DNA of 34,268 bases from Syntrophobacterales bacterium (lineage in GTDB: Bacteria; Desulfobacterota; BSN033; WVXP01; G020346125), in contig CP070774.1 in the NCBI GenBank assembly GCA_020346125.1, positions 1,123,745 to 1,158,012 on the forward strand. The letters run 5' to 3'. The notes below the pieces were generated by a model, which was not told the origin of the DNA, made no database searches, and worked only from the letters and a program-made list of their open reading frames with translations. Of the stretch, positions 9,896-23,879 are shown piece by piece. Numbering within the stretch: position 1 is the stretch's first letter; each line of letters opens with the position of its first letter. Made by a program: the position numbers and the translations under genes.

Positions 9896-10633
9896 TTACA
9901 ATTTCCATTTCCTCATCTCCTCGAAGGAGGAATAGTCGGTCAGATCCAAATGAAGAGGTGTGATTGAAATATGATGGTTCGATATAGCCTCGAAATCCGT
10001 GCCTTCCATTAACTCAAACCCTCTATGCCCCCTGATCCAGTAATACTTTTGCCCAATTGGATTGACCTCTTCCACCACTGCGTCCCCATAAATTCTTCGC
10101 CCCTGTCTGGTGATCCTATGCGATTTCACCCCGTCTTCATCTAGGTTGGGGACGTTGATATTGAGAAATGTGTCCTTGGGAAGGCCGTTTTTCAATACGT
10201 GTCGGGCGACTCTCAGGGCAATAGAAGCCGCCGTCTTAAATTTGAAATCATCTTTTGAGACCAATGATATGGCAAAGGATGGGATTCCATAAAATGCCCC
10301 TTCAAAGGCTGCGGAAACCGTACCCGAATAGGTGATATCTTCTCCCAGATTTCCCCCCTTATTGATGCCGGATGCGATCAGATTTGGCCTTTCGGGTAAG
10401 AGGCAACAAACCGCCAAATTGACGCAATCCGCGGGAGTCCCGTCCACGGCAAAATAATCCTCCCGAACCCGCTCTACCCTCAGGGGACGATGGAGAGAGA
10501 GTGAATGAGCCATGGCGCTGCTCTCCTTATCCGGTGCAACAACATATACCCTCCCGAGGGCCTTCAGTGTCTCGGCCAAGATTTGAATTCCTTGAGAATC
10601 AATGCCGTCGTCGTTGGTTACCAAAATAGTCAA
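9896..10633 (-). CDS. surE: 5'/3'-nucleotidase SurE
   Basis: 245 residues. SurE is a metal-dependent nucleotidase that dephosphorylates nucleoside monophosphates. The metal-binding signature TNDDGI (N7, D8, D9) opens the protein. SGINKGGNLGEDITYSGTVS follows around residues 88-107 and contains the conserved Asn and Ser/Thr of the active site. The start is TTG with GGAAGGA about ten bases upstream; no ATG lies in frame before it. First gene of the likely unit surE - fbp - miaB - DUF151, with a promoter at 10666-10694. Confidence 0.95.
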   Translation of the reverse strand: MTILVTNDDGIDSQGIQILAETLKALGRVYVVAPDKESSAMAHSLSLHRPLRVERVREDYFAVDGTPADCVNLAVCCLLPERPNLIASGINKGGNLGEDITYSGTVSAAFEGAFYGIPSFAISLVSKDDFKFKTAASIALRVARHVLKNGLPKDTFLNINVPNLDEDGVKSHRITRQGRRIYGDAVVEEVNPIGQKYYWIRGHRGFELMEGTDFEAISNHHISITPLHLDLTDYSSFEEMRKWKL

Positions 10634-10665
10634 CGGGGCCCCGTCCTTCCTTGCAGTGTCTATTC

Positions 10666-10694
10666 AATATAGCGCAAATCCCTTGCTTATTCAA
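10666..10694 (-). promoter_or_regulatory. Sigma-70-type promoter for surE operon
   Basis: - strand TTGAAT (10694-10689), exactly 17 bases, then TATATT (10671-10666). The expected start is near 10659, about 25 bases before the TTG codon. The remainder of 10634-10929 holds only the 22-base repeat copy and the terminator of the next gene. Confidence 0.6.
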
Positions 10695-10826
10695 GTTTAA
10701 TACCCGAGGGAGCACTTATAAGTTTCCGGAGAACACCGTTGTCCATGAGCGTAATATGCCGGAGAAGTGGGGTACCCATAGAGGGTAAGCAGGCTTCGTC
10801 GTGAGTCCTCAACCCTGAGATCCATC

Positions 10827-10848
10827 CGGCCCGAGCGTTCGACCGAGC
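10827..10848. repeat. 22-base dispersed repeat, copy 1
   Basis: CGGCCCGAGCGTTCGACCG plus AGC matches the reverse complement of 12558-12579 at 21 of 22 positions, including 16 consecutive bases. Both copies lie in non-coding DNA of higher GC than their surroundings. Confidence 0.6.
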
Positions 10849-10890
10849 TCACGCCGAGGGCAGACCGAAGGGATCAGTTGAACAGTGAAC

Positions 10891-10920
10891 AAAATGGGAA
10901 AATCAGGCCTTGGAGGCTGA
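10891..10920 (-). terminator. Intrinsic terminator after the 166-residue gene
   Basis: - strand TCAGCCT pairs with AGGCCTGA with one bulged base around a 3-base loop, followed by TTTTCCCATTTTG. It begins ten bases after the stop codon at 10930. Confidence 0.55.
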
Positions 10921-10929
10921 ATGCCATTT

Positions 10930-11430
10930 TCACTCCTCCTCCAAGATTTTCGCCAATGTATCTCCTGCGGCTTGCGGAGCGTCTTGAGGGAGGTAGAGCA
11001 TAGCCCCGCCTTTGACAGGCCTCGTAATAATCTTTCCCTCTTCGGCCAGTCGCTGAGTCCTTTCAACGGGATTTGTGCCGAAATATTTCTTAAAAGCCTG
11101 GTTGAATCCGCTATAAACGCTGTGAATCCCCTTATACGGTGGCTTTCGCAATTTCTCAATCGCCCGAACCACAAATTCCTCTTCCGAAAGTTTTGGTTTT
11201 CCTTCCTTAGCCATGTCAACTCCCTCCAAATAGGCTTTGAAATTATCCTCTAGCCCTTCTTTTATCCTCTTCCAACCCGACTGCTTGCCGATCTTAAATG
11301 GGGTCCGCCCCTCGTCTTCTTTCTTGACTACCGTCAGAAGGGATGGATCGTTCCAATCCAAAACCTTCATGATCCCTAAATCCGGGTGATATATTTCGTC
11401 ATCAACTTTCATATGCCAATAACCATTCAA
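10930..11430 (-). CDS. Uncharacterised 166-residue protein, sigma-54 unit
   Basis: I do not recognise the family. The protein is soluble, charged and mixed alpha/beta, with no signal peptide. Residues about 75-140 have a helix-rich part followed by GKIITRPVKGGAMLYLP, which looks like the wing of a winged-helix fold (a weak suggestion only). It ends in an acidic helix. The TTG start at 11430 has no clear ribosome site; an ATG at 11412 is equally poor. Translation may instead be coupled to a short leader ORF (11427-11471) whose stop overlaps the TTG and which does have AGGAGG. A sigma-54 site at 11514-11529 and a terminator at 10891-10920 make this a single-gene unit. The overlapping open frame at 10809-11219 is rejected on composition. 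Confidence 0.7.
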   Translation of the reverse strand: MNGYWHMKVDDEIYHPDLGIMKVLDWNDPSLLTVVKKEDEGRTPFKIGKQSGWKRIKEGLEDNFKAYLEGVDMAKEGKPKLSEEEFVVRAIEKLRKPPYKGIHSVYSGFNQAFKKYFGTNPVERTQRLAEEGKIITRPVKGGAMLYLPQDAPQAAGDTLAKILEEE

Positions 11431-11471
11431 TGAGAGCGAATCCGTTGGAAGTCAAAAGCAATACTCATCAT
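11427..11471 (-). CDS. Possible 14-residue leader ORF
   Basis: It encodes MMSIAFDFQRIRSH and starts 12 bases after AGGAGG, downstream of the sigma-54 start predicted near 11502. Its TGA overlaps the TTG start of the 166-residue gene, so it could couple translation. It may equally be the true N terminus of that gene if a frameshift or sequence error is present. Confidence 0.3.
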   Translation of the reverse strand: MMSIAFDFQRIRSH

Positions 11472-11513
11472 CTTACCACATTTCCTCCTGGTTCGCCCAT
11501 AGCCCGGATTTTA

Positions 11514-11529
11514 GCAGGATTTATGCCAC
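11514..11529 (-). promoter_or_regulatory. Sigma-54 promoter (-24/-12), site 1
   Basis: - strand GTGGCATAAATCCTGC followed by T. GG and GC are ten bases apart and TGGCA is intact at -24. The expected start is near 11502, about 72 bases before the TTG of the 166-residue gene. Confidence 0.65.
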
Positions 11530-11870
11530 CTCATTCGATCTCGATGGGAATTCTCATGGTCTTTCACAAGGGGGGATAAAACGAAGGGATCTTCGGTGGG
11601 GATAAGATCTCAATTCTTGAATAGCGTTTTTTAGAATCCCTCTCAACCCGCTACCCCAACACGAGAGTTGGCGCCAGGAAAACCAGACCTGTTACAGCCC
11701 TCGCGATGACAAAACACATAGTAAAAGTCTCTTTCGCTCAAATCAACACCCCAGAGGAGGTCTCCCCTTGAAATCTTGCCCCACCAAAAGATCGAGGAGA
11801 CTAAGGCTAAAAAATGCTCAGAAGATGGGTAAAAATCATAGTATTGAGTTCATTGCCCTGCCCAAGGGCC
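11530..11870. other. Intergenic stretch without a gene
   Basis: About 340 bases with no open frame that looks coding on either strand. It holds a weak GG-N10-GC match near 11664-11680 lacking TGGCA (rejected). It is the natural place for an upstream activator site for the sigma-54 promoter at 11514, but no clear palindrome stands out. Confidence 0.5.
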
Positions 11871-12023
11871 CTATCCTGAAGGGAAACCAACTTTAGGGTA
11901 ATAAAGAATGAATTCCACGATAAAGGCGATAAGGATGAGAAACATCACCAATCCAAAGGGCTTTATGGTCGTATTACATTTATGTGATGTCCCTCCTCCA
12001 TTCTCGCAGCTTCCCATAGGCAT
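11871..12023 (-). CDS. Small single-pass membrane protein
   Basis: About 50 residues starting at ATG 12023 (or the second ATG at 12017, eight bases after an AGG). The first 20 residues are hydrophilic with two cysteines (GSCENGGG, HKC). A clear hydrophobic segment, LVMFLILIAFIVEFILYY, and a short tail follow. It begins 13 bases after the stop of the two-helix membrane protein upstream, so the two are probably co-transcribed. The family is not recognised and its reality rests on composition and position. Confidence 0.4.
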   Translation of the reverse strand: MPMGSCENGGGTSHKCNTTIKPFGLVMFLILIAFIVEFILYYPKVGFPSG

Positions 12024-12036
12024 AACCTGACGAGTA

Positions 12037-12369
12037 TTAAGCCTCTTTTTTCTTGGGGCCACCCTTTCTGGGTGCCCTCGCGGCCCTTGGCCTCACGGGC
12101 TTCTTCTCTTCGGGTTTGTCAGAAGCCACTTCCGAGGATTCGGTTGAAGTCTCTGCCGTTTTTGTCTCAAAGGTGGATTCGAACTTCTCTGGTTCAGCCG
12201 TCAACTTCTCCTTTATTTCGTCATAACCACTATAAGCCGCAAACCCTCCTCCGACCAAGAGAATGACGGGAATCAAACCCTTTATCATCGTGATGAAATC
12301 CCACCACCAAAAGACTAAAAGAATGATTCCAACGACCAATGCAGCAATACCGCCGAGAAATATTTTCAT
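12037..12369 (-). CDS. Small membrane protein with basic tail
   Basis: 110 residues. Two adjacent hydrophobic segments (about 4-24 and 28-46, with GLIPVILLVGGGFAAYSGY) are followed by an acidic/serine linker and a strongly basic C terminus (RPRAARAPRKGGPKKKEA) that could contact nucleic acid or membrane lipid. No named family is recognised. AAGGAGG lies eight bases before the ATG, and a good sigma-70-type promoter lies at 12438-12465, so this unit stands outside the sigma-54 set around it. Confidence 0.75.
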   Translation of the reverse strand: MKIFLGGIAALVVGIILLVFWWWDFITMIKGLIPVILLVGGGFAAYSGYDEIKEKLTAEPEKFESTFETKTAETSTESSEVASDKPEEKKPVRPRAARAPRKGGPKKKEA

Positions 12370-12437
12370 ACCTCATACCTCCTTACATTAATTATTTATT
12401 TTAGACCGATCATCAGTTTATGAGTATACCTATACTA

Positions 12438-12465
12438 TTTATAATGGAAAAAATGATCATGTCAA
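12438..12465 (-). promoter_or_regulatory. Sigma-70-type promoter for the 110-residue membrane protein
   Basis: - strand TTGACA (12465-12460), a 16-base spacer, TATAAA (12443-12438). The expected start is near 12431 with a leader of about 60 bases. This is among the best sigma-70 matches in the window. Confidence 0.65.
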
Positions 12466-12557
12466 TGGGTAACTGGAGTTTTTTGATTTTTTGGGTGATT
12501 ATGTCGTCCCTGAGTGAAATTCGTTGGAGAAGTGGATTACCCTTGGAGAGCGAGCAG

Positions 12558-12579
12558 GCTCGGTCGAACGCTCAGGCCG
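12558..12579. repeat. 22-base dispersed repeat, copy 2 (inverted)
   Basis: Inverted copy of 10827-10848 with one mismatch. It is embedded in a GC-richer patch (about 12540-12680) that differs from the A-rich DNA on both sides. Confidence 0.6.
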
Positions 12580-12719
12580 ATTGGCTACGCCGAACGGAAG
12601 GGGCAAGCCAGCCCGGTATCCCGCAACCTCCTACCTATCAGCCTTGACCTGCTGCGGGCCAACAGACCCCGATGCAAACGGCCATGGACAACGCAATCCA
12701 AATAAATCAGATAATTAAA

Positions 12720-12782
12720 AAACCAGATAAACGAGATGAACCAGACAAACCAAAATAACCATATAAACCAAACAAATCCCGT
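12720..12782. repeat. Imperfect 9-base tandem repeat (AAACCAGAT-like)
   Basis: Seven consecutive 9-base units: AAACCAGAT, AAACGAGAT, GAACCAGAC, AAACCAAAA, TAACCATAT, AAACCAAAC, AAATCCCGT. Phase is kept while the sequence drifts. On the - strand it is a T/G-rich tract directly after a hairpin. Confidence 0.7.
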
Positions 12783-12792
12783 GAACTCGGGA
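12777..12792 (-). terminator. Terminator-like hairpin after zinc-ribbon gene
   Basis: - strand TCCCG pairs with CGGGA over a 6-base loop, followed by TTTGTTTGGTTT. The T-rich tail is supplied by the 9-base repeat. It lies 28 bases after the stop at 12820. The stem is short, so strength is uncertain. Confidence 0.4.
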
Positions 12793-12819
12793 ATTTCCAA
12801 ATTGAGTACGGGGGGAAAA

Positions 12820-13422
12820 TTACCTCCACCCCGTAAAAATCCACCGTTTTGGATTCCAGAAATGGATCATCCGCTGGGAAAATTGAACACCGCTAACATT
12901 GCTGGCGAGTTCTCGTAGTGCCTGCCTGTTCTTCTCTATTTCCTTATCCTGAGCCCTCTCCAACCCACCATCGGCAATAAAGGTCCGAATTCGCTCTAAC
13001 TCACCTCCGTCGAGCCAAACCCCATGGGCCTTACATTCGTCAATAATGACACCTGATATTTTTGCGAAATTTTTCCGGTTCATTAAGGCTCCACATCGAA
13101 TGCAAGGGATGTATTGTATCGAATCTCTTATGGGCCCTCGAATGTATCCCTTGGGTACTACCTGGCTTTGGTAAACATCGCCTTCCCTGGTTAAGTCTTT
13201 AAATTCACCCCGATCCAGCCATACCCCCCCACACTGGGGGCATATATCCAAATCGCGGTTTCGATATGAAAAATGGTTTAGGAAAACGTTGCACCGAGGG
13301 CACATGGGCTTTCGCTTTTTCCCCATAAGAGATGGCCGCCTTCCTCCACAATGGGGGCATATGGTGCTCTTTACATTAACCTTGCCCCCACAGTGGGGGC
13401 ATTTAACGAGCTTCAATTCCAT
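12820..13422 (-). CDS. Tandem zinc-ribbon (zf-TFIIB-like) protein
   Basis: 200 residues with three zinc-binding modules: C8/C11/C22/C25, then C41/C44/C61/C64 with the zf-TFIIB signature CPQCGGVWLDRGE, then C107/C110/C130/H133 with GVWLDGGELE. The third has His in place of the last Cys. A charged helix (about 150-185) follows. Proteins of this type are common, but their function is unknown; nucleic acid or protein binding is inferred. The start at 13422 is fixed by GGAGG upstream; the ATG seven codons earlier lacks one. Probably co-transcribed with the membrane gene upstream, from the sigma-54 site at 14330-14345. Confidence 0.85.
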   Translation of the reverse strand: MELKLVKCPHCGGKVNVKSTICPHCGGRRPSLMGKKRKPMCPRCNVFLNHFSYRNRDLDICPQCGGVWLDRGEFKDLTREGDVYQSQVVPKGYIRGPIRDSIQYIPCIRCGALMNRKNFAKISGVIIDECKAHGVWLDGGELERIRTFIADGGLERAQDKEIEKNRQALRELASNVSGVQFSQRMIHFWNPKRWIFTGWR

Positions 13423-13632
13423 AACACCCTCCATCTTTATCATCGGTTGGGAACACTTCTTAATTTGCTTCCGTATCTATAATGCTGGGTCGCCATATAT
13501 CGATGCTCGCCTGACGGCGCCTTGGAAGGCCAAATCATATCCCACGTGTATCATATATCAAAGACCACTTGCCCTATTTTGATTTTCAACGCCTCTGGCA
13601 AGACAAAACGCCTTAGCTCCTTTAAGCGAAAG

Positions 13633-14052
13633 TTAATATCGCGAATACCGTATAGGTTGGGGCCTTCCGTATTGAAAGGCCGCGAAGAACAGGAAGGTCA
13701 ATATGATGATGGACACGGTCCAACGGGTATCCCACGAAAAGCTCACGGATTCATCATTGCGGAAGAAAACAAATGAGAATTTGTAATGTTCGATTTTATC
13801 GCCCTTTTTGAATCTCTTATAAATGGAATATGTCACTGGAATCCGTTCATAGCGAACTACCAGCCTTTCTGGTTCCTTCTCCATCGGTTCCTCATATTTT
13901 ATAACCAGACGCCTGCTTGTGGGCAAGCCCCACATACGAAAGGTTTTTCTCCCAACCACCATCCCTTCCACATCGGTAAAAAAACCGGCCTCTCCAATGG
14001 TGATGAGAAGGAATAGGATCGCCACAACCCAATAAAGGAATCTTGCCTTCAT
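13633..14052 (-). CDS. Small membrane protein with two hydrophobic helices
   Basis: 139 residues. Hydrophobic segments at about 5-24 (WVVAILFLLITIGEAGFF) and 112-128 (TVSIIILTFLFFAAF) flank a basic, strand-rich middle part. The topology resembles small DUF3592-like envelope proteins, but I cannot assign a family. GGGGG lies a few bases before the ATG. The nearest promoter is the sigma-54 site at 14330-14345, which leaves an unusually long leader of about 265 bases. Beyond the stop, another reading frame (13551-13697) stays open and looks coding for about 45 codons, so a frameshifted C terminus or a lost neighbour is possible. Confidence 0.75.
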   Translation of the reverse strand: MKARFLYWVVAILFLLITIGEAGFFTDVEGMVVGRKTFRMWGLPTSRRLVIKYEEPMEKEPERLVVRYERIPVTYSIYKRFKKGDKIEHYKFSFVFFRNDESVSFSWDTRWTVSIIILTFLFFAAFQYGRPQPIRYSRY

Positions 14053-14329
14053 TTGTTACCCCCAGAATTGTTTCCCAGTTGTTCTCCTCCTATCGAGGTT
14101 ATTTTCGGCCATCAACGATTGTGCCCCTCATATTACCTCTATCGCCTTTCCCGAATGGCATTTTACTTCTTTTCCCCAAAAACCGCCAGCCTTCTTTCGG
14201 GCTTAACGAAACCTCATGTTAATGATTAATGTGCCGCTCGGTCAAACTTCATTTATCTATTCGGCAAGCTCCCTCGGCGAAAAAGTTCGGTAGACGGGAG
14301 GTAAATTTTTATGATACTCCCGTATTTTA

Positions 14330-14345
14330 GCATTTTGTATGCCAA
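14330..14345 (-). promoter_or_regulatory. Sigma-54 promoter, site 2
   Basis: - strand TTGGCATACAAAATGC followed by T, spacing GG-N10-GC. The expected start is near 14318. The downstream genes are the 139-residue membrane protein and the zinc-ribbon protein. The long leader makes the assignment less sure than for sites 3-7. Confidence 0.65.
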
Positions 14346-14528
14346 ATGGGAAATCAATCGAATGATTAACTGGTTTTGCCAAGAGAACGAAACTCAAAAA
14401 GGAAGCGAGTAGATATACATCCTTGCCGGATTCAGGTTTTCACATGACGAGGTTATTCACATAAGCCATCACTTCTTTATACTGATTTGTTCACTGAAAA
14501 GAATGAGTTTCTAATGCGTAAGCCGGAA

Positions 14529-14565
14529 TAAAAAAAAACACTGGATGACCCCCAATCATCCAGTG
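14529..14565 (-). terminator. Strong intrinsic terminator of the PilZ unit
   Basis: - strand CACTGGATGA and TCATCCAGTG form a perfect 10-base-pair stem over a 7-base loop, followed by a run of T (14538-14531). It lies about 55 bases after the stop at 14619. Confidence 0.92.
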
Positions 14566-14618
14566 CTTAATATAGAGGAGGTCAGGGTTCCGGGTTGCCA
14601 GGGCTTATAGAAAATTCC

Positions 14619-15044
14619 TCAACTAGAGGACAATACGTTCCTCAGATGGAATTCTCGAGCGAGCTGGCCTAAAAGGCCTTTAAAATCCCAAAAAACGCGT
14701 TCGCTTATTCCAATCAACCTTAACCCATATCGATATCTTCCCCAAAAGGCATGGTGCACGATATTGCGCCAGACAACAACGGCATTTGCACCGATGGTCT
14801 TGAGTTGGAAACCCTGGGCGAAGACTAATTGTATCCTCAAAGGGGTCCCCACCTTAATCTGATCATGCAGGCAGACCAATATTCCGCCCTGGCTAATATT
14901 GGCGACGATACCTACATGCATTTCGCTCTCGCTGGTGATACAGTCAATGGGAAGCTCACATTCGAACCTGGGGTACTTACGGCGCTCTGCGAAACCGATT
15001 TTGGGGTGAGGCGGCTTCGATTGGGCAAATTTCCCTTCTTCCAT
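14619..15044 (-). CDS. PilZ-domain protein (cyclic-di-GMP receptor)
   Basis: 141 residues. A single PilZ domain spans about 20-125. Both ligand-binding motifs are intact: RxxxR as RKYPR after ERR, and NxSxxG as NISQGG. PilZ proteins bind c-di-GMP and pass the signal to partners; the partner here is unknown. The N terminus of about 18 residues is flexible, and the C terminus after GRYRYGLRLIGI is a helix. AAGGGTT precedes the ATG. It forms a complete single-gene unit with sigma-54 site 3 (15140-15155) upstream and a strong terminator downstream. It belongs to the same subfamily as the PilZ parts at 15569, 18329, 19128 and 21260. Confidence 0.93.
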   Translation of the reverse strand: MEEGKFAQSKPPHPKIGFAERRKYPRFECELPIDCITSESEMHVGIVANISQGGILVCLHDQIKVGTPLRIQLVFAQGFQLKTIGANAVVVWRNIVHHAFWGRYRYGLRLIGISERVFWDFKGLLGQLAREFHLRNVLSSS

Positions 15045-15139
15045 AACGCAACCCTTTGGGATTGATCGGATTTGTTTGATCTTGATCCCATAGGTGGTTC
15101 GATTTATTGGATTTTACCTAAAGATACTTTGATTTCATT

Positions 15140-15155
15140 GCATTTTCCATGCCAA
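15140..15155 (-). promoter_or_regulatory. Sigma-54 promoter, site 3
   Basis: - strand TTGGCATGGAAAATGC followed by A. It is nearly identical to site 4. The expected start is near 15128, with a leader of about 84 bases to the PilZ start at 15044. Confidence 0.75.
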
Positions 15156-15568
15156 CCAGTGCTATCTGGGAAAATCATCAATGATCTCAGTAAATTGTAT
15201 CAATTCCCCTTTTTCTTCAAAGAGTCATTTTTTGTCAATTTGATGAATTTTTTACATAATTACCCCCATTTTACGGCGATTTATAGGAATTGATGCTATT
15301 TTACAGTGGTTAATTAAGAAAAATATGGGTCAAAAGGAGTTTTGTGAGGTGAGGAAATGATGCCTTCTCTCGTTTAAGGCGATGGTTGAAGTATTGGAGG
15401 GCTCAGCGTTTTCGTGAAATTTTGGCAATTCCAAGAGTTCGGAAGATCCGCTCTGCATGCATTGATCTCTTTTGGCTCGATCCAGTGGGTCACTTGGACC
15501 TTAACCACTTCTCCTCTCGAGCCAGTTTTCCATGACGAAGGATCCGCCAAAGAGATAAGTCCCCCCAA
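15156..15568. other. Intergenic stretch upstream of a sigma-54 promoter
   Basis: About 410 bases. Positions 15200-15330 are strongly AT-rich and lie 80-200 bases upstream of the predicted start at 15128, the usual place for an activator site. The open frame at 15374-15568 directly after the HTH-PilZ stop is not convincing. A GGGGG/CCCCC hairpin overlaps the HTH-PilZ stop codon (about 15562-15583) but has no T run. Confidence 0.5.
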
Positions 15569-16108
15569 TCAGGATGGGGGAAGTTTACTCAGCACTTGGC
15601 CGCCTAGCCTCCTCAGGTTAAGGACATCCTCTCCGCGGATATCCACAAATTGAAGTCCATACTTATAACGGGATCCTCCGGCTACCACTCCAACGTCCCT
15701 CCAGACGACTTTACAAGTAGCCTTGAGCCCTATGGCCTCTGAATCCAAGATGAAGGGAACGAAAACATTCATTTTGGTTCCGACATCCATCCTCTCGTTC
15801 AGAAAGACCATCAATCCCCCTTCACTGGCGTTGGCGACGCCTCCCACATCAGTTCTCCCATTCTCCATAAGGGTATAATCGATCGGAAGATCGACGGGAA
15901 ACCTAGAATATCTGCGCCTCTCCGGTATGAACCTCTCCCCCCTGAGAAACCTGTCTAACTCCGACTTGAGGACCTTCCAGCCCTTCCCAACCTTTTTTGC
16001 CCGGATTTTTCCCTCGTAGACATACTTTAGGTAGGTTGGCCTGGAAATTCTCAGGTAATGGCAGGCTTCGCGGGTTGTGAACACGGTATGGGATTCCGAT
16101 TGGGTCAT
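15569..16108 (-). CDS. Excisionase-type HTH fused to a PilZ domain
   Basis: 179 residues. Residues about 8-58 form a MerR/excisionase-like HTH (FTTREACHYLRISRPTYLKY, then GKGWKVLKSELDRFLRG). Residues about 62-170 form a PilZ domain with RRYSR and NASEGG intact. The layout predicts a DNA-binding protein controlled by c-di-GMP. The HTH shares most of its residues with the separate protein at 21954, and the PilZ part resembles the one at 21260 in the same operon as that protein. Its ribosome site is weak. Sigma-54 site 4 lies 44 bases upstream. The fusion is read directly from an uninterrupted frame; regulation by c-di-GMP is inference. Confidence 0.92.
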   Translation of the reverse strand: MTQSESHTVFTTREACHYLRISRPTYLKYVYEGKIRAKKVGKGWKVLKSELDRFLRGERFIPERRRYSRFPVDLPIDYTLMENGRTDVGGVANASEGGLMVFLNERMDVGTKMNVFVPFILDSEAIGLKATCKVVWRDVGVVAGGSRYKYGLQFVDIRGEDVLNLRRLGGQVLSKLPPS

Positions 16109-16151
16109 TTATTTAGGCTCTTTTCCCGCCCGCTGTAATATACCGTTAACA

Positions 16152-16167
16152 GCATTTTCCATGCCAG
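16152..16167 (-). promoter_or_regulatory. Sigma-54 promoter, site 4
   Basis: - strand CTGGCATGGAAAATGC followed by T. The expected start is near 16140, with a leader of about 32 bases to the HTH-PilZ start. A perfect palindrome TGAAATTATTTCA (16285-16297) lies about 150 bases upstream of the start, a plausible activator site. No gene lies between 16168 and 16347. Confidence 0.75.
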
Positions 16168-16347
16168 GCCTGATTAAAGGGAAATAATTGATAATAAATT
16201 GAAATAAAGGGATATTTTTTCTTATTTCCTCGAGGCAGAAAGGATGGATGTTGAAATTTTTTCCTATTCTCCGAGTAAAAAGTATGAAATTATTTCAGAT
16301 TATTAAATGTCCTCCAAGCGGACCTGACCTTACTACTCGAGCAACTG

Positions 16348-18324
16348 TTAAATCGAGGGAATAACCCTATTCTCCCTAGCCCTCATCATTCTTAATCTCG
16401 GTTTTTTCGGAACGACCTCCCCCATGAGAAATGATCTCACCCTTCTCAGGATTCCCTTGAAATTGAGGCCGCATTTTCCCCTGAGAACTCCTTGGGGACC
16501 ATGTTCCAAGAATTGATCCGGTATTCCGAGGCGAAGCACCTCCACATATGAAAGCCCCTTCTCTTGAAGCAACTCCGTCACAGCACTTCCAAACCCTCCT
16601 GCGAGAACATTCTCCTCGATGGTAACGATTTTGCCTATTTTTTGGGCCATACCGCACAATAACGGACTATCAAGGGGTTTAATGAAACGGGGATTGATCA
16701 CCGCGGCATAGATGCCCTCTTCCCGCAGTTCCCTTGCAACCTCACAAGCCCGATAAACCATGGAGCCCACCGGGAGCATAAGGAGATCATCCCCATCAGC
16801 TAATACCTCCCCCTTTCCCATCTCCAAAACCATCAATGTTTCGTCCATCGTTATCCCCTCTCCCTTTCCCTTGGGATAACGAATAGCAACGGGTTGGGAC
16901 AACTGGATTGCTGTATTGAGCATGTGTTGAAATTCGTTCTCATCCTTAGGAGCCATAAGAATCAGATTGGGAATGTGGCGTAAATAGGAGATATCGAAAA
17001 GGCCGTGATGGGTGGGACCATCTTCTCCGACAATCCCGCTTCGATCCAATGCAAATACTACCGGGAGCCTCGGTAGACAAACATCGTGGACAATCTGGTC
17101 ATAAGCCCTCTGAAAAAAGGTTGAATAAATGGCGACAACCGGCCTAAACCCTTCTGAGGCCAAGCCCGCTGCAAAGGTGACGGCGTGTTGCTCAGCGATT
17201 CCCGTATCGAATATGCGATTCGGGAATTCCCTGGCGTAGACATCAAGGCCAGTCCCGTTTTGCATGGCAGCGGTGATAGCGACGATCCTGGGATTGGTAT
17301 GCGCTAGCTTCACCATGGTCTCTCCGAATACGCGGCTGTAACTTATGGGGGTGGTCGCCTCGTTATTTTGCCTTCCCGTTTCTATGTTAAAAGGGGCCAC
17401 TCCATGGAAGGAGGGCGGATCGAGTTCTGCCGGCCCATACCCCTTTCCCTTTTTTGTAATCACATGGATCAATATGGGACGGTGCCATTCTTTCACGTTT
17501 CTAAAGGTCTCAATAAGATGGTCAATATGATGACCGTCAATAGGACCCACATATTTAAATCCAAGTTCTTCGAACAATATGCCAGGTGTCAAGAACCCCT
17601 TAAATGACTCCTCCGCCTGTTTGATTATTCTTACCATGGAGTTACCGATCCCGGGGATGGTCTGAAGGAGGGACTTCAATTGCTGTCGGAATCGGTTGAC
17701 CAATTGGCCGGTCATTATTCGGTTCAAATAAGCTGAGAGCGCTCCCACATTAGGGGAAATGGACATCTCATTGTCATTGAGTACCACGATGAGATCCTTT
17801 TCCAGGTGCCCCGCCTGGTTCAAGCCCTCAAAGGCCAAGCCTGCAGTCATGGAGCCATCTCCAATCACGGCAATAACCCTATTACCATCGCCCTTAAGGG
17901 ATTTAGCTACGGACATTCCCAGAGCGGCAGAAATGGAGGTACTGCTATGTCCGGTATTGAATGCGTCGTGGGGACTCTCCTCCCTTTTGGGGAAACCGCT
18001 CAAGCCATCATACTGCCTCAACGTATGAAAGGAAGCCCTTCTCCCCGTTAAGAGCTTATGAGGATAGCACTGATGTCCCACATCCCAAATTATTTTATCC
18101 CAAGGGGAATCAAAGACATAATGAAGGGCGATGGTCAGTTCCACAACACCCAAATTCGAGGCCAGATGCCCTCCAGTGATGGAAACGGTTTGAATGATTT
18201 CCTCCTTGATCTCCTCAGCTAGGTGGTATCGTTCGCCTCTGCTCAATTTCCTCAAGTCTTGAGGACTATGGATCTTCTTTAAAAGGTTTTGTTCTCCCTT
18301 TCGCTCCACCCCCAGCACCCCCAT
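16348..18324 (-). CDS. dxs: 1-deoxy-D-xylulose-5-phosphate synthase (second copy)
   Basis: 658 residues, complete. DXS condenses pyruvate and GAP to DXP, the first step of the MEP pathway. Thiamine-diphosphate motifs are intact: H53 (GGHLASNLG), DVGHQ with H84, GHSST (125-129), GDGSMT (155-160) paired with NDN (183-185), and the [10 protein letters not shown] segment of the pyrimidine domain. It has a basic C-terminal extension of about 25 residues. It starts four bases after the stop of a PilZ gene and has no strong ribosome site of its own, so it is probably translated by coupling and transcribed from sigma-54 site 5. It is clearly diverged from the other dxs at 32829, which sits in the standard dxs-tlyA context. 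Confidence 0.96.
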
Positions 18325-18328
18325 CTAT

Positions 18329-18700
18329 TCAGACCATCTGGTCCTCTGTATATGTCTTCAGTCGCTTCAATTTCGATATGTCATCTTTATTGATCTCGAG
18401 AAATTTGAGCCCATATTGATAACCCGGAAAATCCGATACTAATCCCACGTCCTTCCAGATGATCTGGCATCGTGCCTTGATCTCTGTGAGTTGGTAGCCA
18501 AGGTTAAACAGCATGGAAACAACCACCTTCGTCCCGGTATTCATGCTCTGCTCAAAACAGACCATCAGTCCCCCCTCACTGGCATTGACGGCTTTTCCCA
18601 CAAAGCTTCTGCTTCCATCCTCGCAATGGTAATCAATGGGAAAATCGATGGGGAACCTGGGATGTCTTCTTCGCTCATAAAGTCGAATCTGGTCTTCCAT
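18329..18700 (-). CDS. PilZ-domain protein, co-transcribed with dxs
   Basis: 123 residues, almost entirely one PilZ domain with RRHPR and NASEGG intact. The C terminus is a lysine-rich helix (LKRLKTY). GGAGGG lies close before the ATG at 18700. Its TGA is four bases before the dxs start, so the two genes form an operon behind sigma-54 site 5. A direct link between c-di-GMP and isoprenoid synthesis is suggested by position only. It belongs to the main PilZ subfamily of this region. Confidence 0.93.
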   Translation of the reverse strand: MEDQIRLYERRRHPRFPIDFPIDYHCEDGSRSFVGKAVNASEGGLMVCFEQSMNTGTKVVVSMLFNLGYQLTEIKARCQIIWKDVGLVSDFPGYQYGLKFLEINKDDISKLKRLKTYTEDQMV

Positions 18701-18840
18701 ACGCCCTCCAATTTAGGATCGGTTTCGGTCTTGCTTTCTTTCGGCCGAGAAACCAGATAAGACTCAGCATTAGGATCTGTTTGGGGATAAAGATGCGGTG
18801 ATGTTGCTGTATGATTTCCTTGCCCCCAATGGGCAGTTTT

Positions 18841-18856
18841 GCATTTTTTGTGCCAA
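18841..18856 (-). promoter_or_regulatory. Sigma-54 promoter, site 5 (PilZ-dxs)
   Basis: - strand TTGGCACAAAAAATGC followed by A. TGGCAC matches the consensus fully. The expected start is near 18830 with a leader of about 130 bases. The stretch 18857-19127 upstream holds no gene; a + strand AAGGAGG followed by a 17-codon frame near 18965-19034 is probably chance. Confidence 0.75.
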
Positions 18857-19127
18857 AAACTCGGCAAACGGAGCCCATCGATCCATATCTTCAGTCCAAT
18901 AAGACCTATCGGTAATGAGAGGGACTTCTCCTGCTTTTTCGATTTATGTAATTCTTAGATTAAGGAGGCAAGGAAGTACAATGAGAAATATCTTGAATGG
19001 AAAGGGCCTAAAGATAATGGCATTCGTGAGGTAAATCAATATGGCCACGAATTACATGTTTACGTATTGGAATGAGCTTATATGATGGCAAAGGAAAAAG
19101 CTAAATTCCAATTCCCCGGGGATGGAT

Positions 19128-19502
19128 TTAGGATTGGATCGCTAAATCTGCTTGGAGCTTCTTCAATTTGTGCAGGTCTTCATCGGCAATTTTCAAGAAC
19201 TTCAACCCATACTTGTATCGACCCCAACCCTCTTCTAATCCAGCATCTTTCCACATTACCTGGGATAAAGCTTTAACTCCGGTAAGCTCGAATCCCATGG
19301 AGAAAAGAAGGGCAACATAGAGTTTCGTTCCGATTTTCATTCGCTCTTGCATATATACCATCAAACCTCCTTCACTGGCATTGCCCGCTATGCCAGCCTT
19401 AAGCCGCTTCCTTTCTAGCCGGGCATAATCCAATGGTAACTCTATCGTAAATCGCTGAAACCTCCTCCTCTCCATATCTGAAATATCGATCCTCTCTTCC
19501 AT
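19128..19502 (-). CDS. PilZ-domain protein
   Basis: 124 residues with RRFQR and NASEGG intact and the subfamily end GRYKYGLKFLKI plus a basic helix. The start at 19502 is the third of three adjacent start codons (GTG ATG ATG) and is preferred because GGAGG lies six bases before it. It follows the putative lipoprotein gene by about 27 bases and is probably transcribed with it from the sigma-70-type promoter at 20236-20264, not from a sigma-54 site. Confidence 0.92.
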   Translation of the reverse strand: MEERIDISDMERRRFQRFTIELPLDYARLERKRLKAGIAGNASEGGLMVYMQERMKIGTKLYVALLFSMGFELTGVKALSQVMWKDAGLEEGWGRYKYGLKFLKIADEDLHKLKKLQADLAIQS

Positions 19503-19529
19503 CATCACCCTCCCTCAGTAGCCTGGAAT

Positions 19530-20024
19530 TCACCGATAGCGGATAGCAAGACCCCGTAGGAGAACCTTCTCCTCCTCTGTTTCAGGACTGGATATGTCCA
19601 ATGGTTGATGTCTGGCTTTCCTCTTTATGGGTTCGGAAAAAACCCCGGGGACCAGCATCTCAACTGCTTCCTTCTTAAAGCCAATAATGGCATCTGCTCC
19701 AAGTCCTTGGGACACTTCCTTCATCCGATTTACCATCTCCTCATTACTAAGCTCAGGTGAGAAAGTAATCTTCAATTCCCCGATAATAGTGTAAGGCTTA
19801 TCCACATCTTGGGAAAATACTTCCACCCTCGGTGTTTGGGGAAAAGTTTCTTTCGTAAATCTGGTAAAGTTAACGGCTTCATATGGGCCTTCAGAGGCAC
19901 AACCTACAAAGTGGAGGACAAGCCATAAGACTAAAAATGGTCTCATTTCATTATAAAAGAACGGAATAGAGGGCAAAATGCCTATCCAGCGAGGATGTCG
20001 AGTTTTTAACCTACTATATCTCAT
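19530..20024 (-). CDS. Putative lipoprotein
   Basis: 164 residues from ATG 20024 (GGAGGT 11 bases upstream), or 138 from ATG 19946 (no ribosome site). Either way a hydrophobic segment FLVLWLVLHFVGC ends in a lipobox-like Cys, so the mature protein is probably lipid-anchored outside the inner membrane. Residues after the Cys include YTIIGELK and a helix ending QGLGADAIIGF, a pattern shared with YbjQ/RcsF-type domains (weak). The long N-region of the 20024 form is unusual for a lipoprotein signal, so the true start is open. It overlaps a small upstream frame by 11 bases and precedes a PilZ gene. Confidence 0.65.
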   Translation of the reverse strand: MRYSRLKTRHPRWIGILPSIPFFYNEMRPFLVLWLVLHFVGCASEGPYEAVNFTRFTKETFPQTPRVEVFSQDVDKPYTIIGELKITFSPELSNEEMVNRMKEVSQGLGADAIIGFKKEAVEMLVPGVFSEPIKRKARHQPLDISSPETEEEKVLLRGLAIRYR

Positions 20025-20112
20025 GAGAAAGGGGGACCTCCTTAAGCTTCCTCTCCCAGAATGGACAAGGCCGTCCCTCTTGAATCAATATTTCCCTCAT
20101 ATTATTCAACAT
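20014..20112 (-). CDS. Small 32-residue ORF, possibly a frameshifted remnant
   Basis: It encodes MLNNMREILIQEGRPCPFWE and 12 more residues ending PLSHEI, with natural-looking composition. Its stop overlaps the start of the lipoprotein gene. The ATG has no ribosome site. Coding-like sequence continues upstream (LQILDDED) to a stop. A well-placed ATG at 20196 (CAGGAG nine bases upstream) opens only after a one-base shift, and a second shift is then needed to reach this frame. It is therefore either a short coupled ORF or what remains of a gene spanning 20014-20196. Confidence 0.35.
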   Translation of the reverse strand: MLNNMREILIQEGRPCPFWERKLKEVPLSHEI

Positions 20113-20235
20113 ATCTTCATCATCGAGAATCTGTAAAACGATATTAGAATGGGATTTTCAATTATATCCCCTATAAGGAAAGCTGCTTTAACTCATGAAC
20201 TTACTCTCCTGCTCCTCCTTATAAATTGAACCTCA

Positions 20236-20264
20236 ACTTTACAAGAAATGAATCTATTAGTCAA
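20236..20264 (-). promoter_or_regulatory. Sigma-70-type promoter for lipoprotein-PilZ unit
   Basis: - strand TTGACT (20264-20259), 17 bases, TAAAGT (20241-20236). The -35 overlaps the stop codon of the upstream PilZ gene. The expected start is near 20229. Confidence 0.5.
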
Positions 20265-20608
20265 GCATTTTTCTCCCCTTTCATTCGGGATTGAACGATT
20301 TCCTTTAGAACCTTACGGGCAGCCGGGGATATCTTTTTGTATTGGATCCCCATTCCCGAATGGGTTCCCTCCACGACCCAAACCACCTCTCCTATGATCA
20401 CTATAGGTTTGGCATGATTCGGGAAGGAAAATTCCAGGGGAATTTCCGTCCTGGGGGGCAACAACTCATCCGTCTCGACAAAACATCCTCCTTCGCTGAT
20501 ATTATCCGTAAACCGATGGAGATATGAATCAATCTTTTGGTAACCCACCTCTATCCGTAACTTCACTCTAGGGTGTTCCCTCCTCTCCTCTGCTTTAGAT
20601 GCCTTCAT
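20261..20608 (-). CDS. PilZ-domain protein (TIGR02266-like)
   Basis: 115 residues, compact PilZ domain with ERREHPR and NISEGG intact, then PPRTEIPLEFSFP and the end GMGIQYKKISP with a C-terminal helix. This is the subtype abundant in myxobacteria and their relatives, different from the main subfamily here. GGGGGG precedes the ATG. It begins 38 bases after the stop of the PilZ gene at 20647, so two unlike PilZ proteins are probably made from one transcript. Confidence 0.92.
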   Translation of the reverse strand: MKASKAEERREHPRVKLRIEVGYQKIDSYLHRFTDNISEGGCFVETDELLPPRTEIPLEFSFPNHAKPIVIIGEVVWVVEGTHSGMGIQYKKISPAARKVLKEIVQSRMKGEKNA

Positions 20609-20646
20609 AACGCCCCCCTTTCCAAGGTATTACTCATATACGTCAG

Positions 20647-21090
20647 CTATTTCACATGCTGGATGAAATGGTTCCACTTCTCCCTCTCCCCGGGGGCCAT
20701 CTCCTCGAGAAAAACCCCAATCTTTACACGGTACATCTTATTGGTTGCCTTCAACTCGCTCCAAATCACCTTACCCAAGGCGATTACCTTCCCCTTGCGC
20801 GATAGTAAGTCAATTTCCACTTCCAACTGCCGTTCTTTCATCACCAGAAAGGGCAATACCTTTACCCTCTTGCCACCGTTCGATTCTGAGAAAGTCATCA
20901 CGCCTTCCTGCACTTCGGCATCTGTCTCAATGCATAAACCATCATAAGAAACGTCCCATGTTCTTCCCGCTATGAGCATCGAACTCTGTTCCTTGCTCCA
21001 AAGGTCCACAATTTTAAAGTGGACCTCCAAGGGCACATGGAGCCGGGTAAACAAACGCCGCTCAACGGCGCCGATCTTTTTCGCCCTCAT
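20647..21090 (-). CDS. PilZ-domain protein, long-loop subtype
   Basis: 147 residues. RLFTR follows ERR, and DxSxxG is present as DVSYDG. A longer insertion (about 65-90, FSESNGGKRVKVLPF) precedes the last strands, which end in KVIWSELKATNKMYRVKIGVF and a helix. The only close relative in the window is the protein at 27661, which shares the same insert and the C-terminal WxxF pattern. Its promoter was not found; the terminator of the preceding unit (21163-21241) ends about 70 bases upstream, so it should start its own transcript. Confidence 0.9.
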   Translation of the reverse strand: MRAKKIGAVERRLFTRLHVPLEVHFKIVDLWSKEQSSMLIAGRTWDVSYDGLCIETDAEVQEGVMTFSESNGGKRVKVLPFLVMKERQLEVEIDLLSRKGKVIALGKVIWSELKATNKMYRVKIGVFLEEMAPGEREKWNHFIQHVK

Positions 21091-21162
21091 CTCCCCATTC
21101 CTCTTGAAACGTTATCTCAAGTGTGAGTCTCATAGCGAGTAAATACGCCCTTTTCCTTCCCC

Positions 21163-21241
21163 AAAAAAACCAGCTCTATAGATTTACCGTTGTATAATCT
21201 TGGGCTCCTATTCCCCCCAGGATAGGTAAAAATAGAGCTGG
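21163..21241 (-). terminator. Branched intrinsic terminator
   Basis: - strand CCAGCTCTAT (21241-21232) pairs perfectly with ATAGAGCTGG (21179-21170), and TTTTTTT follows. The intervening 52 bases contain an inner hairpin CCTAT/ATAGG. It lies 18 bases after the PilZ stop at 21260 and closes the HTH - 70aa - PilZ operon. Confidence 0.8.
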
Positions 21242-21259
21242 CGGTTAATTTCTTTCAGT

Positions 21260-21661
21260 CTACGCGGCAAGGCTATCGAGCAACCATTTCAATTTAGAAA
21301 AGTCCTCCTTCCCAATGTTCACGAATTTCAATCCATACTTAAACTCGCCCCAATCCCCGGGCCCTCTAATATCCGCCCAAACGATTTCCGCCATTAACCG
21401 TATAGGCGTGAGACGAAATCCATGGGAAAAGAAAACTTCGATCTTGAGCTTGGCACCAATGGGGAACCTCTCCTGCAAATAGACGAGAAGTCCTCCTTCG
21501 CTGGCATCGTGGGCAATTCCTCCCTGCTTTTTACGTACCTTCACCTCGGAATATTTCATGGGGAGGTCGACGTTGAACCTGGGAAATCTCCTCTTCTCAA
21601 TGCAAACAACCCCTGATTTTCCCTCTAAATCTTCCTTCTTTTTCTCTTCACTCATAGACAT
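21260..21661 (-). CDS. PilZ-domain protein in an operon with a separate HTH protein
   Basis: 133 residues. The first 20 are charged and variable, then a PilZ domain with RRFPR and DASEGG intact and the subfamily end FKYGLKFVNI. Two ATGs (21661 and 21655) are possible; GGGT lies seven bases before the second. It is the third gene of the unit HTH (21954) - 70 aa (21745) - PilZ, read from sigma-54 site 6 and closed by the terminator at 21163-21241. The same HTH type is fused to PilZ at 15569, so a working partnership between this protein and the HTH protein is likely. Confidence 0.92.
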   Translation of the reverse strand: MSMSEEKKKEDLEGKSGVVCIEKRRFPRFNVDLPMKYSEVKVRKKQGGIAHDASEGGLLVYLQERFPIGAKLKIEVFFSHGFRLTPIRLMAEIVWADIRGPGDWGEFKYGLKFVNIGKEDFSKLKWLLDSLAA

Positions 21662-21744
21662 TACCCGTAAAGATCTCTTGTTGGTATTCCTTCAATTATT
21701 ATTCTACCCACTGGACGGATCATCTCATCGCGACACATACCCTT

Positions 21745-21957
21745 TCACATGACTTCGTAAATATCTTCGAATATTTTTTCATTCCAGTCAACTAAATCTT
21801 TCTCGTCTTTGGCTTTACTACCGGACTGGTATCGTTCCCATTTTCCTTTACTCCCTTTATTTAACATCATCCCCAACCTCGAATGGATAAGGAAGGGATT
21901 TGAGTCATTGAGATGCTGGCGTTGTGCAGGCGAAAGTGGATGCCGTGAATGATTCAT
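21745..21957 (-). CDS. 70-residue protein coupled to the HTH gene
   Basis: The ATG overlaps the TGA of the HTH gene (ATGA) and follows GAGGGGAG by four bases, a strong sign of translational coupling. The protein is hydrophilic: a His/Arg/Ser-rich start, a central basic part (NKGSKGKWERYQSGSKAK) and an acidic end (DLVDWNEKIFEDIYEVM). No family is recognised. Its place between the HTH and PilZ genes suggests an adaptor or antagonist, which is inference. Confidence 0.55.
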   Translation of the reverse strand: MNHSRHPLSPAQRQHLNDSNPFLIHSRLGMMLNKGSKGKWERYQSGSKAKDEKDLVDWNEKIFEDIYEVM

Positions 21958-22154
21958 TGATCTCCCCTCAGGAAACGATCCAGCTCCGATTTGAGCACTT
22001 TCCAACCTTTGCCAGCCTTTATGGCCTTAATTCTCCCCTCCCGAATATATTTGAAATAAGTCGGTTTCGTAATACGAAGGTAAAAACAGGATTCCTTGGT
22101 TGTCAGTACCTGATCTTCTATGCTGTAATTATTTTTCTTCGTCATATTCACCAT
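21954..22154 (-). CDS. Excisionase-type HTH DNA-binding protein
   Basis: 66 residues. A winged MerR/excisionase-like HTH: LTTKESCFYLRITKPTYFKY then a basic wing and GKGWKVLKSELDRFLRG. It is nearly the same as the N-terminal domain of the HTH-PilZ fusion at 15569, with identical GKGWKVLKSELDRFLRG. The in-frame start further upstream (22220) lies ahead of the promoter and is rejected; ATG 22154 or 22145 is used. Despite the family name, a transcription-factor role is more likely than excision, because the operon contains PilZ and no recombinase. Confidence 0.85.
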   Translation of the reverse strand: MVNMTKKNNYSIEDQVLTTKESCFYLRITKPTYFKYIREGRIKAIKAGKGWKVLKSELDRFLRGDQ

Positions 22155-22185
22155 GATTAAAAAAAGGGGTATCTTTATCAATTCT

Positions 22186-22201
22186 GCATTTTTTATGCCA
22201 A
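22186..22201 (-). promoter_or_regulatory. Sigma-54 promoter, site 6 (HTH-70aa-PilZ)
   Basis: - strand TTGGCATAAAAAATGC followed by A. The expected start is near 22174, only about 20 bases before ATG 22154, which fixes the HTH start downstream. The gap 22202-22466 is AT-rich and holds no gene. Confidence 0.75.
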
Positions 22202-22353
22202 TGGAAGTAAGGCAGGTCATGAAGTGCTCTTGTTTAACTTTCTGATATTATTAATGAAATTTTATACTACATCTCTAAAAAGGTGCAAGTTGTTCATGAG
22301 AATTGACTTTTTTTCATAGTGGGGGAAAGCCTCTGAAGGAGAAGAGGGAAAGT

Positions 22354-22379
22354 AAAAAAGAGCCTAAATGCTTATTAGG
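22354..22379 (-). terminator. Weak terminator after DUF4124 gene
   Basis: - strand CCTAA pairs with TTAGG over a 7-base loop, then CTC and TTTTTT. It lies about 90 bases after the stop at 22467. The stem is short. Confidence 0.35.
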
Positions 22380-22466
22380 AGGTGAGAAAAAAGGATGGAC
22401 TGATACCAAGAGGGGTCGATTTTCCTCAAAAAATTGATTCCTTTCGGCACCAAATCCATGTGGCCT

Positions 22467-23009
22467 CTATGGCCGGAGCCACGACGGGTCAGCTCCTGCC
22501 ATCCTCGCCTCATCCAATAAGATGTCATTCAGCATGTGTTTCGCTTCGTCTATCTGGGCCCTATATTGCTCGTCTTCCTTCTGGAGGCGTTTAATCTTTC
22601 TCCGGAACCTTCGCCTCTTTCCATCGTTGCGGGCCTTTTCCAGAACCTCCCTTGCTTCTTCGACCTCCTTGGTAATCCTTTGGTGTTGAGAAGTCGCATT
22701 CTCTAGTTGCAACCACCACTTGGAGGCCCTGTCCCTCCACCAGGATTTCCTTCGTCCAAAACGATCCGTAGGCTCCCTTTGGACCCGTCGCTTCGGCGAT
22801 TTCCCTTCATCGAGGGGTTTTCGGCCTTCCTCCTTAATGATTTTTTTCTCCTCAAGCCGATCCCAATATATCTCCGGTACGTTTGCCGGATCATCAGTAA
22901 AATGGACTGTTCCCGAATCGTCAACCCATTTATATACTTGGGCATGTGAGAAGGAGACTACCAAAAGGCAATAAAGCCCAAGGAGGATTTGGAGAGATCT
23001 CATATTCAT
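22467..23009 (-). CDS. Secreted DUF4124 coiled-coil protein
   Basis: 180 residues. An N-terminal signal peptide (LQILLGLYCLLVVSFSHAQ) is followed by a DUF4124 domain with its hallmark VYKWVDDSGTVHFTDDP, then a basic linker and a long charged coiled coil (about 95-170). It is predicted to be periplasmic; the function of DUF4124 is unknown. It is a paralogue of the protein at 26396, which has the same order of parts and a similar end (PEEAERAGAPAEWVK there, LDEARMAGADPSWLRP here). A sigma-70-type promoter lies at 23082-23110 and a nine-codon leader ORF just ahead of the start. Confidence 0.88.
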   Translation of the reverse strand: MNMRSLQILLGLYCLLVVSFSHAQVYKWVDDSGTVHFTDDPANVPEIYWDRLEEKKIIKEEGRKPLDEGKSPKRRVQREPTDRFGRRKSWWRDRASKWWLQLENATSQHQRITKEVEEAREVLEKARNDGKRRRFRRKIKRLQKEDEQYRAQIDEAKHMLNDILLDEARMAGADPSWLRP

Positions 23010-23013
23010 ATCG

Positions 23014-23043
23014 TTACCCGAGTTTTAGGGGAATTTGGCTCAT
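23014..23043 (-). CDS. Possible 9-residue leader ORF
   Basis: It encodes MSQIPLKLG, with AAAGGAGG seven bases before the ATG, a better ribosome site than that of the DUF4124 gene, whose ATG lies four bases after this stop. It could feed ribosomes to the main gene by re-initiation. Confidence 0.3.
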   Translation of the reverse strand: MSQIPLKLG

Positions 23044-23081
23044 TCGCCTTCCTCCTTTGGCTCATCCTTTTTTCTTTTTTC

Positions 23082-23110
23082 ACTTTACCCTCTCCATCGC
23101 CAATCGTCAA
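23082..23110 (-). promoter_or_regulatory. Sigma-70-type promoter for DUF4124 gene
   Basis: - strand TTGACG (23110-23105), 17 bases, TAAAGT (23087-23082). The expected start is near 23075. Confidence 0.45.
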
Positions 23111-23627
23111 GGATCCTTTATTCCTCTGATTCACCATCTAATGCATTCCTATCCATTACTGAAAGATGCTCCCTCCGATGACTGAACGAAATTTCTGATC
23201 CGTTCTATGGCTCGTACGTTCGAATTATGCTTATATTTTCGCGTGTTGCAAATGTAGACAGTGGATTGAATCTTCTCATTTGGAGGATTTTGATAAAATC
23301 TCTTTGATGTACCGAGGACCTCTGGAAAAATTATTCCACAGGCCGAAGTTGCTCTTTTTATCCTGAGGGAGCAGAGGGGAAGAAAGGATACGTGGAATTT
23401 TCCAAGGAGAATGTGATTGAGGCGTTGATTCAAATGGAGTTAAGAGGGACAGAGGGATCGAGGAAATCAAAAGTTATTGAGGTTATTGGGGCGGGGGTTT
23501 TTTTTACCTTTATAACTCGATCTCACCGGCCCCTCGTCCCTCATTTTTCACAAAAGCTAACCCCTTGGTGGTGAGCTACCCTGATATTTCATTTTCCGGT
23601 CCTCATGACGTTTCCTTCCCGGGAAAA
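23111..23627. other. Intergenic stretch with possible decayed coding sequence
   Basis: About 515 bases without a convincing gene. On the + strand two adjacent frames look coding in succession: one ending ALFILREQRGRKDTWNF near 23400, and one from 23392 with YVEFSKENVIEALIQMEL. This could be a short gene broken by a frameshift. A run of G then eight T near 23490-23510 has no matching stem. Confidence 0.35.
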
Positions 23628-23879
23628 TCAGTTCGGACGAAAATCAGATCCCGCCGTTGCAGTCGAATCATTGTCTTTTTCTTCGATCGGTGATGCTCCA
23701 ATACAACAATTAATGCAAGGGACGAACGGAGAAAACCCCGAGTCTCTCACATCCTCCCCCTTCTCTACCTTGGGGGGAATCATATTCACCCTCTCCTTGA
23801 TTCCTTGGGCTGAATCAGACCGAGAGTCCACAGTTGATTTGAGGTAATATAGGAAAAGCCATCCGAGCAATTTAAGCAT
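23628..23879 (-). CDS. Small protein with N-terminal hydrophobic segment
   Basis: 83 residues. GGAGG lies four bases before the ATG. The N terminus MLKLLGWLFLYYL is a short membrane segment or signal; the rest is polar, with CINCC in the middle. The general plan (short hydrophobic start, a GEDVRD segment, then FVP) recalls small membrane-anchored proteins of the PP0621 type, but their PVCG motif is absent, so this is a weak resemblance. A palindrome-like CCAGCATCTGG (23926-23936) lies about 50 bases upstream. It may be a real small gene or a decayed one. Confidence 0.4.
   Translation of the reverse strand: MLKLLGWLFLYYLKSTVDSRSDSAQGIKERVNMIPPKVEKGEDVRDSGFSPFVPCINCCIGASPIEEKDNDSTATAGSDFRPN

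Follow-up and report, generated by a model that had tools for sequence, protein, structure and literature searches.

Whether a single polypeptide can connect the second messenger c-di-GMP directly with promoter DNA is the question raised by an open reading frame near the middle of the window, that is, the whole stretch of 34,268 nucleotides analysed here. An earlier note on this DNA had proposed that the frame joins an excisionase-type winged helix-turn-helix (HTH) domain to a PilZ domain with both ligand motifs intact. The gene and the relevant parts of its product are as follows.

15569..16108, minus strand: HTH-PilZ fusion gene, a 179-codon open reading frame with Pfam domains and full-length orthologues
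15941..16084, minus strand: winged HTH of the HTH_17/excisionase family (BldC-like), residues 9-56, assigned by Pfam, TIGR01764 and Foldseek to 6ama
15608..15925, minus strand: PilZ domain, residues 62-167, assigned by Pfam and by Foldseek to 4xrn, 4rt0 and 4rt1
15902..15916, minus strand: RxxxR motif, R65-R69 (RRYSR), with R65 and R69 unchanged across three orthologues
15815..15832, minus strand: [D/N]xSxxG motif, N93-G98 (NASEGG), with N93, S95 and G98 unchanged across three orthologues

The frame starts with an ATG at position 16108 and encodes a product of 179 residues, in which HTH_17 (PF12728; E 3.9e-12, 46.7 bits against a Pfam cut-off of 27) and PilZ (PF07238; E 5.3e-13, 49.6 bits against a Pfam cut-off of 22.5) are separated by a linker of about 6 residues. 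The HTH domain also matches the NCBIfam family TIGR01764 'excise' (E 1.1e-11, 44.9 bits against a cut-off of 28.8). The two significant domain matches in a single conserved frame bear out the proposed fusion, and both ligand motifs are indeed intact, with invariant key residues in RRYSR (65-69) and NASEGG (93-98). The description of the HTH as excisionase-type stands in so far as it matches TIGR01764; since its structural resemblance is to BldC, 'excisionase' is a family label only.

Full-length orthologues, 82-83% identical over all 179 residues, occur in a further two genomes of the genus; the gene order is the same, each orthologous gene having dxs1 on one side and the same PilZ gene on the other. 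The presence of the fusion was judged in three of the four genomes of the genus, because the contig of the fourth stops within dxs1 and so is uninformative in this respect. A scan of genome contigs detected two fusions and one stand-alone HTH, and copies of the fusion are found in the metagenome-assembled genomes CSMAG_2168 and Hel238_bin70, the latter recorded as Thermodesulfobacteriota. The same region also contains adjacent stand-alone genes for an HTH and for a PilZ protein, as would fit a frameshift or an assembly artefact joining two genes; however, the identical, stop-free junction in the same gene order in three independent genomes makes such an origin hardly credible, and it was rejected on the strength of the two orthologues. 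A sequence error, which the earlier note had named as a refuting condition, is therefore excluded. The dN/dS ratio is about 0.12 for the HTH half and 0.27-0.34 for the PilZ half (two wider comparisons); both halves are under purifying selection, the PilZ half being the faster-evolving of the two.

Structure prediction, one of the checks proposed earlier, recovers both the winged-HTH and the PilZ-barrel topology. The AlphaFold2 model, built from a 16-row alignment, has a mean pLDDT of 80 and shows a winged HTH at the N-terminus, followed by a C-terminal beta barrel that ends in a helix; how the two domains are placed relative to each other is uncertain (pTM 0.57, with pLDDT falling under 50 at linker residues 62-64). 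In this model the RxxxR motif begins about 10 residues past the final HTH helix (residues 48-55). Foldseek matches the PilZ half to the c-di-GMP complexes 4xrn and 4rt0 with a TMt of about 0.8 and also to 4rt1, as well as to structures of MotI and MrkH (5kgo). The HTH half is aligned with the BldC-DNA complex 6ama over 52 columns at 1.7 Å with a TMt of 0.77 but an E value of 0.08, in agreement with a BldC-like winged-HTH fold. A profile search of PDB sequences found only the PilZ protein YpfA (E 0.0012), whereas the fusion sequence alone gave no match in the PDB and the HTH profile alone gave nothing significant.

The region upstream of the fusion gene contains a promoter element and three repeats.

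16151..16166, minus strand: sigma-54 (-24/-12) site TGGCATGGAAAATGCT, the same in three species and 43 nt ahead of the ATG
16285..16301, minus strand: palindrome-centred element AATCTGAAATAATTTCA, a possible upstream control site, its palindromic core conserved in three species
16252..16268, minus strand: second copy AATAGGAAAAAATTTCA, 33 bp from AATCTGAAATAATTTCA, its core conserved in orthologues
16210..16226, minus strand: third, degenerate copy AATAAGAAAAAATATCC, 42 bp beyond the second, weak at 82% identity

The site TGGCATGGAAAATGCT, which fits the sigma-54 pattern when one mismatch is allowed in the search, lies within a 21-nt block that is identical across the three species. Between 10.6 and 28.2 kb of the window, TGGCAYN6TGCW is found at seven intergenic sites on the coding strand and at none on the other strand, against 0.008 expected from first-order Markov simulations. 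The seven sites precede PilZ genes, a stand-alone HTH gene, ybjQ and others, including genes without a known function, and sigma-54 sites recur ahead of HTH, PilZ and DUF4124 genes in relatives. RpoN is encoded in the genome, so that the fusion gene combines an upstream -24/-12 site with the cognate sigma factor, as a sigma-54-dependent gene should. The sigma-54-type promoter that had been proposed for this gene thus agrees with the invariance of its site in orthologues, the regional excess of such sites and the presence of RpoN.

Two copies of AATNNGAAAWAATTTCA are located upstream of the fusion promoter, 33 bp apart. This pattern has three exact matches in 2.07 Mb, one of them elsewhere than the fusion promoter. 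None of the window's other sigma-54 promoters was found to be preceded by a GAAA-N-TTTC element, and dyad counts showed nothing strong. The copies of AATNNGAAAWAATTTCA may be bound by an enhancer-binding protein or by the fusion regulator itself.

The positions 10600-28200 of the window form a PilZ-rich sigma-54 regulon, in which the following genes are related to one or the other half of the fusion.

14619..15044, minus strand: stand-alone PilZ gene, preceded by a sigma-54 site of its own (15139-15154)
18329..18700, minus strand: stand-alone PilZ gene adjoining dxs1, with a sigma-54 site at 18840-18855
19128..19508, minus strand: stand-alone PilZ gene, the closest paralogue of the fused PilZ domain in the window (46-47%)
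21957..22154, minus strand: stand-alone HTH paralogue of 66 residues with a sigma-54 site at 22185-22200, upstream of a PilZ gene at 21260-21661

The 2.07-Mb assembly encodes 21 PilZ domains, two GGDEF proteins (diguanylate cyclases) whose sites, GGEEF/GGDEF, retain intact active-site motifs, and HD-GYP-type proteins represented by two near-full-length homologues and seven partial matches; since the assembly is estimated to be 76% complete, these counts are minima. The GGDEF proteins, the HD-GYP-type homologues and RpoN indicate that both the signal and the sigma factor exist in this organism. PilZ matches number 26 and 31 in the related order members G004 and G005 and mostly 2-7 in the sister family, one genome of which has 15.

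The survey of the same architecture in other genomes, which had also been suggested, placed all orthologues within the genus among the class and phylum genomes searched. Profile searches found no HTH-PilZ fusion outside the genus in a class survey of 23 genomes in which all candidates were scored, none among 395 phylum genomes with no more than 10-15 candidates per genome considered, a depth at which distant or rare fusions may escape, and none in the eight-genome class of G040. Six longer HTH_17 frames from other genomes contain no PilZ domain; by eye, one of them looks like an HTH-receiver protein and another like an HTH-nucleotidyltransferase protein. Plasmid and phage collections gave only weak partial matches to the HTH in tblastn searches.

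The closest homologues of the fused HTH in the sister family are stand-alone proteins of about 65 residues. Stand-alone relatives of the HTH carry its helix-turn-helix and wing segments, YLRISRPTYLKY and GKGWKVLKSELDRFL, almost unchanged. At each of the nine sister-family loci that were read (L063-L071), the stand-alone HTH gene is followed by a gene for a HEAT-repeat protein and then by one for an HD_5 (HD-GYP-type) protein that keeps the GYP triad, and a sigma-54 site lies 34 nt upstream of two of the nine operons. The genome of the window has a HEAT/HD-GYP-type operon behind a sigma-54 site as well (L132), and no HTH was found there. Since the stand-alone HTHs share an operon with an HD-GYP-type protein, they provide an independent tie of this HTH to c-di-GMP. 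In an HTH tree of 51 columns, the root of which is arbitrary, the fused HTHs stand apart from the other paralogues with modest support (93/89 and 88/78); the tree does not contradict a kinship between the fused HTHs and the operon HTHs. The identity of the fused HTH to the operon HTHs is at least as high as, and mostly higher than, that to the stand-alone HTHs of its own genome. The tree and the identities together suggest that the HTH may have changed its partner from an HD-GYP-type neighbour to a fused PilZ domain, and its most likely origin is a stand-alone regulator heading an HTH-HEAT-(HD-GYP-type) operon of the sister-family kind.

These observations lead to a plausible reading, to which we give a probability of roughly 0.68, that the fusion protein is a single-chain transcription regulator responsive to c-di-GMP; ligand binding, DNA binding, their coupling, the targets and the direction of control are all what we infer for such a protein. 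The N-terminal BldC-like winged HTH would bind AT-rich promoter DNA, and the PilZ domain, which is probably an intercalated dimer as in PilZ domains of the Alg44 type, would bind c-di-GMP through R65/R69 and N93/S95/G98. In two-domain PilZ proteins of the YcgR/VCA0042 type, c-di-GMP is held by the RxxxR loop, where the barrel begins, and alters how the domains are placed relative to each other. Because the RxxxR motif of the fusion protein follows the last HTH helix by about ten residues, c-di-GMP should on binding turn the HTH to a new orientation with respect to the PilZ barrel, which may alter its DNA affinity or oligomerisation. Transcription of the fusion gene by RpoN would place the regulator itself under an enhancer-binding activator. 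Sigma-54 polymerase requires an AAA+ activator, and the fusion protein has no AAA+ domain and therefore cannot alone activate the surrounding sigma-54 promoters; more likely roles are repression or modulation of its targets, or action at promoters of the sigma-70 class.

Well-preserved ligand motifs are also compatible with PilZ domains that act on proteins, and HTH_17 domains are sometimes architectural rather than gene-regulatory, as in Xis and RacA. It is thus conceivable that the HTH binds DNA constitutively and that the PilZ domain is a docking module for another PilZ protein, an enhancer-binding protein or RNA polymerase, with c-di-GMP not acting as the switch. The many co-encoded PilZ proteins, which form a run in the window, could pair in this way, and the faster evolution of the PilZ half would fit such a role, but all three orthologues fully keep both ligand motifs, which a purely docking PilZ domain need not do, and an HD-GYP-type protein is encoded next to a stand-alone HTH homologue, so that docking is an unlikely explanation. 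Conversely, the HTH may serve for protein-protein contact or dimerisation, making the fusion protein a PilZ adaptor rather than a DNA-binding regulator. Winged HTHs can take on a protein-contact role, and no operator shared with the other promoters of the window was found; nevertheless, the HTH is more strongly conserved than the PilZ half, its segments YLRISRPTYLKY and GKGWKVLKSELDRFL are hardly changed in the stand-alone relatives and its fold superposes on that of DNA-bound BldC, all of which makes an adaptor improbable.

The excisionase family label, together with the phage-type integrase gene at 718-1851, raises the possibility that the HTH is an excisionase or an architectural remnant of a mobile element and that the fusion protein has a role in recombination or in the chromosome. 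This seems very improbable, as the integrase gene is 14 kb away among housekeeping genes, the HTH relatives are conserved through the class, beside an HD-GYP-type gene and behind sigma-54 sites, and the phage and plasmid records match the HTH so poorly. A regulator that couples c-di-GMP to DNA binding remains the preferred reading.

Regulators that bind both c-di-GMP and DNA are already known. In a 2025 review, MrkH is the only PilZ-based transcription factor named, and it is said to use a novel DNA-binding domain, not a canonical HTH (PMC12564702), with which the statement of the earlier note that most PilZ proteins lack a DNA-binding domain agrees. Like the fusion protein, MrkH of Klebsiella pneumoniae is one protein with a C-terminal PilZ domain, and it activates promoters in response to c-di-GMP. 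In contrast, MrkH has no obvious HTH (PMC3161979), its N-terminal half being a beta-barrel resembling PilZ/YcgRN domains (PMC12943098), whereas the N-terminal half of the fusion protein is a canonical winged HTH in place of such a barrel. The fusion protein is best read as functionally comparable to MrkH, but built differently. BldC of Streptomyces is a 68-residue MerR-like protein that forms head-to-tail oligomers on AATTxxxxC direct repeats (PMC5859096). Its winged HTH is similar in size and fold to that of the fusion protein (6ama, 1.7 Å), and the stand-alone relatives in the class, at about 65 residues, consist like BldC of a winged HTH only; BldC has no sensor domain, unlike the fusion protein with its PilZ domain. 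BrlR of Pseudomonas aeruginosa resembles the proposed regulator in being an HTH protein of MerR type that responds to c-di-GMP, but it does not bind its ligand through PilZ, and the 2025 review places ligand binding in a GyrI-like domain (PMC12564702). HTH_17-REC proteins carry the same kind of HTH together with a signalling domain, which is receiver-like rather than PilZ; an example from a genome of the same genus is L165 (G002:C218), with an HTH_17-type domain and an apparent response-regulator receiver.

A combination of PilZ with an excisionase/BldC-type HTH was not found in the open-licence literature, where the relevant PilZ/BldC work concerned BldD, and the novelty of the fusion applies within that literature and the surveyed phylum. 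If the preferred reading is true, the protein would be a compact example of a second-messenger switch combined with a DNA-binding domain, and could find use as a simple genetic part that responds to c-di-GMP. The link between the HTH and the HD-GYP-type operon leads to the wider hypothesis that the whole HTH family is dedicated to c-di-GMP output. In its fullest form, which is speculative and rather doubtful, one BldC-like HTH family would be the dedicated c-di-GMP transcription output of this uncultured Thermodesulfobacteriota class, with an HD-GYP-type neighbour in the sister family and a fused PilZ domain in the genus; the fusion protein would then be the first PilZ-based regulator to use a canonical winged HTH, and possibly a c-di-GMP-gated oligomer that coats DNA.

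Several other genes of the window deserve mention. No tRNA was found within the window, which carries the integrase gene near its start. Two dxs genes, at 16348-18324 and 32829-34268, are about 65% identical, and one of them lies inside the PilZ cluster. The small membrane protein encoded at 12037-12369, which has a basic tail, gives a weak NCBIfam match to the magnetosome protein MamI, with 38 bits against a cut-off of 80, which is probably due to chance. The gene at 24575-26386 encodes a 603-residue protein without a Pfam or NCBIfam match, and in the sister family a protein that resembles it over about 190 residues near the N-terminus is encoded between PilZ genes.
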